Shown here: one piece after another, positions 29,253 through 29,950 of the stretch | Numbering within the stretch: position 1 is the first letter of the stretch | How the letters are laid out: every line of letters starts with the position of its first letter | Assembly (NCBI GenBank): GCA_029246925.1 | Contig: JAQWMF010000039.1 | Coordinates: 1 to 47,567 of the forward strand | Source of the DNA: Porticoccaceae bacterium | GTDB taxonomy: Bacteria; Pseudomonadota; Gammaproteobacteria; Pseudomonadales; Porticoccaceae | Direction: 5' to 3' | DNA length: 47,567 bases | The notes under the pieces: generated by a model | The model's input: only the letters and a program-made list of their open reading frames with translations | The model's database searches: none | What the model was told of the DNA's origin: nothing | Translations under genes and position numbers: made by a program

Positions 29253-29382
29253 TAAAAAACTATCAATTGAGTGAATTTTGTAAGGTCGCAAGGGTATAGA
29301 AAATCACCTCAAACGCCAACTTTTTTAACAAAATACATCAACATAGGTTGTTGACCAAAGACCGATCACTGCCAGAGTGGTG

Positions 29383-29431
29383 GCAATGTTTTTCTCCTGC
29401 AAACATTGCATTCCCGCCATCCATGGCGGTC
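29383..29431 (+). repeat. two-hairpin insertion in the D-arm of the tRNA-Leu pseudogene
   Basis: This 49-bp insert between GCCAGAGTGGTG and AAATTGGTAGAC holds two perfect inverted repeats. The first is GCAATGTTT / AAACATTGC (29383-29391 and 29401-29409) with a 9-nt loop. The second is CCGCCAT / ATGGCGG (29414-29420 and 29423-29429) with a 2-nt loop. No other copy was seen in the window. Confidence 0.75.
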
Positions 29432-29483
29432 AAATTGGTAGACAGATTCAAAATCCCCCGCCCTTAAAAGCGTGCCGGTTCGA

Positions 29484-29567
29484 CCGATTGCGAAAGCAAT
29501 CAGGGCGCCGAAGCAACGCGACGGCGGGGTAAAACCCCGAGGAGCATCCACAAGATGCTCCGAGTCA
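29484..29567 (+). repeat. T-loop-inserted structured element, copy A (84 bp)
   Basis: The element sits between TTCGA and GTCC of the tRNA-Leu T-arm. It contains three hairpins: GATTGC-GAAA-GCAATC, CGGGGT-AAA-ACCCCG (29525-29539) and GGAGCATC-CACAA-GATGCTCC (29541-29561). It is homologous to copy C at 29859-29932, which occupies the same T-loop position. Confidence 0.85.
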
Positions 29568-29644
29568 GTCCAGCCTCTGGTTATCATAATCACAAAAATA
29601 TAACCCTTTAGACGCCAATTTAACAAAAAAATGTAGATCATGAT

Positions 29645-29672
29645 TTGACCAATTACTGATCGCTGATATAAT
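29645..29672 (+). promoter_or_regulatory. strong sigma70 promoter of tRNA-Leu
   Basis: TTGACC (29645-29650), a 16-bp spacer and TATAAT (29667-29672) end 24 bp before the mature 5' end of the tRNA, leaving a short leader to be removed by RNase P. A decayed copy of the same promoter without the -10 box lies at 29351-29370. Confidence 0.85.
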
Positions 29673-29696
29673 CGCCGCCCTGCTTTTGATAGCAAT

Positions 29697-29783
29697 GCCA
29701 GAGTGGTGAAATTGGTAGACACAGGGGATTCAAAATCCCCCGCCCTTAAAAGCGTGCCGGTTCGAGTCCGGCCTCTGGTACCA
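29697..29783 (+). tRNA. tRNA-Leu (anticodon CAA)
   Basis: This 87-nt gene has encoded CCA. The acceptor stem is GCCAGAG / CTCTGGT and the D-arm contains AAATTGGTAGAC. The anticodon stem-loop GGGGA-TTCAAAA-TCCCC gives anticodon CAA, reading UUG. It has a long type II variable arm and a T-arm GCCGG-TTCGAGT-CCGGC. It is flanked by a strong promoter and a terminator and is the only intact copy of the three tRNA-Leu-related units at this locus. Open frames over it on both strands are translation artefacts. Confidence 0.97.
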
Positions 29784-29790
29784 AACAGTA

Positions 29791-29819
29791 ACACCCGCCT
29801 TTTTAGGTGGGTGTTTTTG
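29791..29819 (+). terminator. rho-independent terminator of tRNA-Leu
   Basis: The stem is ACACCCGCC / GGTGGGTGT (29791-29799 and 29807-29815, one G-T pair) with a 7-nt loop, followed by a T-run. It begins 8 bp after the CCA end of the tRNA. Confidence 0.9.
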
Positions 29820-29840
29820 TTTGTGTTAAGGGCCGGCGAG

Positions 29841-29950
29841 AAGCGGCATTCGGTTCGACTAATTGCGCCAGCAATTAGGGCGCCGCAGGCGGGGTGAAAC
29901 CCCGAAGAGCATCATCAAGATGCTCTCAGTCAGTCCGGCCTCTGGTACCA
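29841..29950 (+). pseudogene. 3' fragment of a further tRNA-Leu copy carrying the T-loop element
   Basis: AAGCGGCATTCGGTTCGA resembles the variable-arm to T-loop part of the tRNA. It is followed by the structured element (29859-29932) and then GTCCGGCCTCTGGTACCA (29933-29950), identical to the 3' end of the intact tRNA. The sequence after CCA (AAACGGACACC) also resembles that after the intact gene (AAACAGTAACACC), so the duplication extends beyond the tRNA. The 5' two-thirds of the tRNA are missing. Confidence 0.8.
29859..29932 (+). repeat. T-loop-inserted structured element, copy C (74 bp)
   Basis: This is homologous to copy A. Its three hairpins are TAATTGC-GCCA-GCAATTA, CGGGGT-GAA-ACCCCG (29890-29904) and AGAGCATC-ATCAA-GATGCTCT (29906-29926). 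Compared with copy A the outer pair of hairpin three changes from G-C to A-T, and one pair of hairpin one changes from G-C to A-T; both changes keep pairing. Nine bases between hairpins one and two are absent. Confidence 0.85.

Follow-up and report, generated by a model that had tools for sequence, protein, structure and literature searches.

Two related elements on either side of a tRNA-Leu gene

The DNA analysed here, a stretch of 47,567 nucleotides that we call the window, belongs to a draft assembly (1.55 Mb) of a Porticoccaceae bacterium. Direct reading of the window revealed an intact tRNA-Leu(CAA) gene, designated copy B, flanked by two hairpin-rich elements, designated copies A and C (Table 1). 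Copy B was the sole tRNA detected in the window by ARAGORN, and also the sole tRNA found by Rfam at the gathering score.

Table 1. Features of the tRNA-Leu(CAA) locus, in coordinates of the window
Feature	Position	Strand	Basis
Degenerate tRNA-Leu(CAA) copy A, 5' part to the T-loop TTCGA, with a 49-bp hairpin-rich D-arm insert and a 5-bp gap before the anticodon arm	29371-29483	+	Sequence comparison; ARAGORN calls no tRNA
Element copy A, 84 bp, first letter C after TTCGA, last letters GTCA	29484-29567	+	R1 match 29479-29567, 58.8 bits, E 4.7e-14
tRNA-Leu tail remnant behind copy A, GTCCAGCCTCTGGT	29568-29581	+	Direct reading
Intact tRNA-Leu(CAA), copy B	29697-29783	+	ARAGORN; Rfam RF00005, 53.6 bits
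Intrinsic-terminator-like hairpin and T-run behind the tRNA, in the style of the terminator arriving with the unit in locus L325	29784-29823	+	By eye
Inverted T-arm-like stretch (GGCGAGAAGCGGC...GGTTCGA) directly before element C	29830-29858	+	By eye; relatives and E. coli laid out alike
Element copy C, 74 bp, first letter C after TTCGA, last letters GTCA	29859-29932	+	R1 match 29854-29932, 73.8 bits, E 1.7e-18
Second tRNA-Leu tail with CCA, GTCCGGCCTCTGGTACCA, exact copy	29933-29950	+	Direct reading, sequence comparison

An earlier note on this DNA, made from the letters alone, had placed the elements directly behind the T-loop TTCGA, with an intact gene in the middle. Direct reading confirmed this placement, with the tRNA-Leu(CAA) tail following each element at once; TTCGA ends at 29483 before copy A and at 29858 before copy C. 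The note had also described both outer units as split tRNA-Leu genes. Unit A is indeed a tRNA copy interrupted after TTCGA, but unit C contains the 3' tail only, with an inverted T-arm-like stretch before its TTCGA. The hairpins said to be kept in both copies are shared, but their number had to be corrected from three to four. The paired changes proved to be real: in the alignment, hairpin 1 and the last hairpin have G-C in copy A and A-T in copy C.

The two copies can be aligned end to end, and comparison without gaps gave one block of 38 nt with 84% identity and another of 59 nt with 88%. In folding calculations, both copies beat 200 of 200 shuffles on either strand (z -5.2 and -3.6 for the two copies on the + strand, -3.8 and -4.0 on the - strand). 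A covariance model of the element that includes TTCGA, designated R1, was made from 22 seed sequences, with copy C but not copy A among them, and its matches to copies A and C are not due to chance. A separate 49-bp insert with two hairpins lies in the D-arm of copy A (29383-29431); the sequences of these two hairpins had no exact match in the fetched loci except in views of the window itself.

Anatomy and junctions of the element

The element is gene-less, about 60-100 bp in size, and composed of four hairpins. It starts with C after TTCGA and mostly ends with TCA before the tail. The base of hairpin 1 is A/T-rich, hairpins 2 and 3 are short and often have GNA loops as judged by eye, and hairpin 4 is longer. 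Among 74 extracted units (67 distinct), 58 followed TTCRA, 14 followed the end of another element and 2 followed the D-loop sequence GCTGA. On the 3' side, a tail came next in 49 units, another element in 18 and other sequence in 2, and 5 were extracted incomplete. These shares are conditional, because the units were picked by their flanks. Tandem elements were also joined head-to-tail without any tRNA part, at TCA/CTAA (the slash marks the joint). In the same flank-selected set, all 14 units behind another element began with CT, and 40 of the 58 units behind TTCRA began with CA. The TTCGA and TCA joints of these units show insertion behind a constant short motif, with no duplication of the target.

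The setting of the element varied. It was found within a full pseudo-tRNA upstream of an intact gene at tRNA-Cys (L154), at tRNA-Gln (L186) and in copy A of the window, and after the D-loop sequence GGCTGA upstream of tRNA-Ser. At tRNA-Phe (L150, L158) it lay on the opposite strand, after CTCGGA, and in three loci (L185, L138, L151) tmRNA-like tails carried it, as judged by eye. We make no general claim that the local tail recurs in inverted form between the terminator and the element, since the tRNA's own tail was the best match in only 20 of the 99 tRNA-element pairs described below.

The motif-dependent insertion, the hairpins at the ends and the lack of target duplication resemble the logic of IS200/IS605 transposons, and TTCGA is kept only by the first copy of an array. 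These properties would suit mini-elements derived from REPs or IS200/IS605 and moved by a Y1 transposase. We consider such an origin improbable, because Y1 genes were found in just 8 of the 48 genomes of the genus, none of the 9 Y1 loci had an R1 match, and the GTAG tag of REPs (PMC3733652) is absent from the element ends.

Distribution and tRNA context

R1 matches were found in 32 of the 48 genomes of the genus and in at least 68 of 369 genomes of the class Gammaproteobacteria. This and the other class-wide counts below, for RtT and AaHKsRNA22, are lower bounds because the scan filters were strict, and they take in the window's own genome. At E 0.01, the number of R1 matches was 36 in G018, whose genome is a single contig, 29 in G048 and 4 in the genome of the window; a tRNA gene was present in the fetched stretch at 13 of 15, 8 of 10 and 1 of 3 places, respectively. 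With copy A as the query against 36 genomes, three tandem copies were found behind the same tRNA in the congener G010, and further copies behind a tRNA-Leu tail and a tRNA-Ser. When 50 genomes were scanned with a pattern, the core GTTCGAC-hairpin-GGACGCC recurred, often as tandem copies at a spacing of 160-190 bp, amid numerous chance matches; a reversed control pattern gave about as many matches in many genomes, and loci were then picked by eye for a hairpin-like gap. Of forty-four genus loci with the core, 35 contained tRNA genes (Ser, Leu, Lys, Asp, Arg) and 9 contained none; no element was seen in one of the 44, L025. A tRNA was also present in 22 of 29 fetched new loci of the class. The search of related genomes that the earlier note had proposed therefore yielded further copies, with the hairpins kept and with strong covariation as described below, and its suggestion of a small non-autonomous element tied to tRNA T-loops gained support from copies at other places that stand behind TTCGA in the vicinity of tRNA genes.

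Public genomes scanned with a pattern yielded 94 stretches; among the 80 listed, 17 were named Woeseiaceae or Woeseia, 4 Porticoccaceae and many only Gammaproteobacteria or Proteobacteria. From 108 pattern matches, 71 had a tRNA within 700 bp on the same strand: for 55 the distance past the tRNA was 57-95 bp (median 76), for 13 it was some other value below 700 bp, and 3 lay less than 700 bp before a tRNA. The remaining 37 had no such tRNA. A set of 99 distinct tRNA-element pairs, picked for a spacing of 40-110 bp, had a median distance of 76 bp. The tail after the element fitted the local tRNA above the tRNA tails of all other amino acids in 54 of these pairs, and the local tail was not the single best match in 45. 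When R1 was run on the public stretches (84 of the 99 loci L200-L298, with 15 same-genus loci left out), no match was obtained in those labelled Clostridia, Opitutales, Planctomycetota or Bacteroidia. A link to phages was tried and dropped: a pattern scan of viral contigs gave 5 stretches, none with an R1 match at E 0.001.

Several further observations were made at individual loci. In two Woeseiaceae loci, element copies lie about 3.6 kb apart around ordinary genes (L224 2877-6489 and L228 3016-6600). The enclosed genes, named by eye, encode PEP-CTERM-like proteins and a CadC-like regulator, and may be cargo. In L058, L078, L080, L138 and L160, tail, terminator and element stand, by eye, behind DNA that does not resemble the tRNA 5' half, as if an island had inserted into the same tRNA and separated it from the element. 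The repeat GATCCTTCGRCTTCRCTCAGGATGAC is located close behind several element arrays (L078 899-924, L080 531-556, L093 1198-1223, L096 1118-1143, L140 and L144); its exact matches occur in 26 of 402 fetched loci, many of which are overlapping views of the same places. In L189 (1501-1578), an element copy lies inside a gene that looks by eye like a serine resolvase, and no tRNA was found in this locus.

Relation to RtT and AaHKsRNA22

The repeats of E. coli tyrT have been known for decades, and we know of no accepted origin for them. The earlier note knew of no element of the present form. This is not supported, because the E. coli tyrT repeats, which the note itself had cited as a loose parallel, share the order of parts, and the Rfam model RtT matches family members in the window's genus. 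E. coli K-12 tyrT/tyrV has first the tail, then GGGGAAGGRTGAGAA...GGTTCGA, the hairpins and again a tail, which is the order seen in the element family. RtT (RF00391; rttR, tpr) and the family have in common the tRNA tail, an inverted T-arm containing TGAGAA, then GGTTCGA, the hairpins and a further tail with CCA, in repeated units. By eye, the layout of RtT, with an inverted T-arm that contains GAGAA, then GGTTCGA, the hairpins and a second tRNA 3' end, was found at window copy C, in its relatives and in E. coli. GAGAA, GAGAC or AGAAC was located between tRNA and element in 52 of the 99 pairs.

The RtT model scored 132.9-137.5 bits on E. coli K-12 tyrT/tyrV and passed its cut-off (45 bits) in the congener loci L342 and L343, with 72.1 and 71.5 bits, and it had no match in the window at E up to 0.1. 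Conversely, R1 did not match E. coli tyrT (L329), L342 or L343 at E 0.01, and the link to E. coli therefore runs through the common layout and intermediate loci. In the class, RtT was found in at least 55 of 369 genomes, above the cut-off in 23. Twenty of the 55 are also among the 68 R1 genomes, and either model matched in 103 of 369. Seven listed places overlapped between the two class-wide scans. In 30 fetched RtT loci, R1 and RtT matches overlapped at 21 (E 0.01 or better), and an additional R1 match in L365 did not overlap; a tRNA or tmRNA gene was present in 28, with a tmRNA gene in L389.

A megablast search with the E. coli tyrT repeat unit found matches in 4680 of 5426 E. coli genomes, at 1-9 places each. 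The other 746 had no match, and 18 of the 9980 places were on plasmids. One report lists a VNTR of 175 bp at the rtT RNA in Salmonella (PMC2658671). A literature search, for which most subscription journals were beyond reach, found no paper treating tRNA T-loop hairpin elements as a family.

AaHKsRNA22 (RF02902) is another branch. This model aligned along the whole element in the congener locus L076 (27.5-30.2 bits, below the cut-off of 39.8 bits) and had no match in the window at E 0.1. It passed the cut-off at three places in G093, the one genome out of 56 of the order to do so, which belongs to another family; these places are beside tRNA-Arg genes. In the class, it passed in at least 1 of 369 genomes, with 10 copies (L390, L394-L402). 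Nine of these 10 copies begin at an exact AAGTGCGGT, a share helped by the search because the model itself holds most of these letters. We take AAGTGCGGT to be a DNA-uptake sequence of the Haemophilus type. A tRNA gene was found in 1 of the 10 loci. In L398, the inverted form of AAGTGCGGT also occurs at the far right end of the copy.

Filled and empty sites

A match to tRNA-Leu(CAA) was obtained in 29 of the 48 genus genomes, and 30 loci were fetched, two of which represent the same place. L317, L322 and others had no element, and one kind of terminator followed the tRNA-Leu. In the filled locus L325, a different terminator comes first, followed by the element, the tail, and then the resident terminator and flank. 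The DNA beyond the tail of the element in L325 matched the DNA right after tRNA-Leu in the empty loci L317 (62/68), L322 (58/67), L320 (48/62), L313 (56/73) and L314 (46/58), while the score of its first terminator against the empty-site terminators was not above the best shuffle. At tRNA-Ser(GGA), the filled locus L075 gave 52/64, 55/63 and 53/63 with the empty loci L335, L341 and L348, respectively, and its first terminator behaved likewise. The filled locus L337 gave 32/39, 36/43 and 40/48 with the same three loci, for the flank only. Four tRNA-Leu loci (L308, L321, L323, L327) appear to hold decayed remains, and L299 and L300, which are near the window by tRNA sequence, have no element. 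Empty sites, which the earlier note had named as a check, thus exist at two tRNA loci. The comparison of filled with empty sites indicates that a unit of tail, terminator, short hairpin, TTCGA and element enters at the T-loop and that the tRNA is kept whole. In rebuilding the tRNA, leaving a tail copy and having empty sites, the unit behaves as integrative elements that target tRNA genes do.

These comparisons bear on two other explanations. One of them involves no insertion reaction at all: an old duplication of a tRNA tail with hairpins would have been spread by the host through unequal crossing-over, gene conversion and transfer of whole loci. The near identity of many tandem units (L065, L158) and the variable number of places per matching E. 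coli genome would fit such amplification. Against it, the empty sites carry a different resident terminator, the same element is found at many tRNAs with differing tails, copies occur at D-loops, and most of the copies in one genome have no tRNA beside them. We therefore judge that amplification alone is quite unlikely to account for the data.

The other explanation, to which we give a slightly better but still low chance, regards the units as mini-islands of tyrosine recombinases, i.e., gene-less satellites of integrative elements with the tail as the shared att core in double-stranded DNA and the hairpins as binding sites. The unit order and the rebuilding of the tRNA are as for islands in tRNA 3' ends. 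By eye, the tail in the five loci L058, L078, L080, L138 and L160 follows sequence unrelated to a tRNA 5' half, as at the end of an island, and in L224 and L228 two element copies flank genes. However, the joints TCA/CTAA and TTCGA/C have almost no common core letters, and the positions at the D-loop and antisense to tRNA-Phe do not fit a core in the tail. No integrase was noticed among the listed open reading frames of L224 and L228, which were read without a profile search; a unit of 150-190 bp is itself too small to carry an integrase gene.

Pairing in the stems

The covariation of the hairpins was analysed in 22 units aligned by MAFFT from sequence only, with the structure written by hand. 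This set consists of 29 units, minus 8 with other hairpin-2 types or nearly double (copy A among them), plus L098. Of 612 cells, 93.0% were paired; 123 double changes were counted, and 23 of the 28 pairs had double changes. The covariation score was 0.562, compared with 0.161 after shuffling and at most 0.101 for slid versions of the structure. With the same structure, 97 distinct sequences from public genomes, in an alignment fitted to the model, gave 91.9% paired cells, 494 double changes and a score of 0.425 against 0.101.

Mismatches in the stems provide information on the nucleic acid that is folded. G-U and A-C mismatches originate from equivalent transitions, and RNA stems tolerate only G-U well. 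In the element stems of 209 distinct sequences, at positions with at least 90% Watson-Crick pairs, we counted 44 G-U, 37 A-C (p 0.5) and 60 other mismatches. The tRNAs of these loci (169 found, those with terminal CCA counted) served for comparison: their acceptor and T stems, 2004 pairs in all, had 73 G-U, no A-C and 1 other mismatch. Because the tRNA finder itself favours G-U, two more counts free of this bias were added: hairpin 1 taken by its flanks gave 2 G-U and 4 A-C in 109 arms, and terminators after tRNAs, a weaker control, gave 52 G-U and 15 A-C in 119 arms (p 0.036). A first version of the count had given 57 G-U against 414 other mismatches, much of which came from the poorly aligned hairpin 4. 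Since the element stems show no preference for G-U, the pairing seems, from these sequence comparisons, to be maintained at the level of DNA, or else through a palindrome-correcting process acting on DNA. The position on the opposite strand at tRNA-Phe also suits a DNA target.

The earlier note had proposed selection on a folded DNA or RNA. Folded DNA fits better, and RNA is not favoured, given the G-U and A-C counts and the terminator-like hairpin that separates element C from the tRNA in the window. For E. coli RtT, an RNA is reported to be released from the transcript of the tRNA. In Rfam, RtT is entered under cis-regulatory RNAs and AaHKsRNA22 under sRNAs, and E. coli records name the repeat RtT sRNA. 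A tRNA-linked small RNA, with hairpins kept for RNA function, is nonetheless the least probable of the explanations we weighed, and we hold it to be very improbable. Both contrasts in the mismatch counts (element stems with tRNA stems, hairpin 1 with terminators) argue against it. Moreover, a terminator-like hairpin usually lies between tRNA and element (by eye in the printed loci; L271 is an exception), and elements also occur antisense to tRNA-Phe.

Proposed mode of insertion

The element is a real, widespread and regular feature. With modest confidence, we favour the reading that the copies in the window are members of a gammaproteobacterial family of small, gene-less, four-hairpin DNA elements, which most likely includes the tyrT/RtT repeats of E. 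coli, and that the unit enters a tRNA gene at the boundary between T-loop and tail. This reading draws on the observed junctions and copied tails, on two tRNA loci with both filled and empty sites, on the TCA/CTAA joints and on stems without wobble preference. The unit measures roughly 150-190 bp and consists of the element, a tRNA tail copy, a terminator and a short sequence with GGTTCGA at its end. On entering at this boundary, it would leave the tRNA intact by providing a fresh tail and terminator, and the original ones would be displaced downstream. The moving form may be a folded single-stranded DNA on which a recombinase acts in trans, and insertion may take place into a hairpin loop of single-stranded DNA. 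Tandem arrays could grow if units insert repeatedly or are exchanged unequally. The element could be linked neither to a transposase nor to an integrase.

The settings at the T-arm, at the D-arm and at the uptake sequence can all be read as hairpin loops. A broader joint reading, which we regard as possible but rather doubtful, is that these are ancient gene-less DNA elements that insert in the loops of DNA hairpins, namely the T- and D-arms of tRNA genes, the T-arm of tmRNA genes and, in one branch, a site beside a DNA-uptake sequence that makes a hairpin with its inverted counterpart. Such elements would move as folded single strands via an undiscovered recombinase, rebuild the tRNA they enter, and leave repeated att-like sites able to trap cargo genes, and the RtT and AaHKsRNA22 'RNAs' would be mobile DNA.

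The apparent nature of the RtT/tyrT kind is altered by how broad the family is, by its regular place in T-loops, by the existence of empty sites and by the DNA signature of the stems, and the RNA label of the two Rfam families is put in question. With the E. coli tyrT repeats tied to a class-wide family in tRNA T-loops, an oddity becomes a testable question about a mobile element, its mover and the strand that moves. In addition, tRNA genes gain another type of lodger besides phages and islands.

Comparison with known systems

Genomic islands and prophages occupy tRNA 3' ends and, like the unit described here, rebuild the tRNA and leave a second copy of its tail. The unit differs from them in that it is gene-less and about 150-190 bp long, has its edge at the T-loop TTCGA, and contains elements joined in tandem. 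REP elements with RAYT (GTAG) and CGTC REPs are, like the element, short palindromic extragenic repeats, and CGTC REPs share with it the lack of a known transposase, according to the accessible part of one source (PMC3733652). In that part, each REP has one hairpin, and no tRNA tail or T-loop position is described. From RtT, the element family differs in the sequence of hairpins 1 and 2 and in its use of many tRNAs, and the window in the terminator-like hairpin standing before element C and behind the tRNA. The element is a new branch of the RtT/tyrT kind and is not without precedent.
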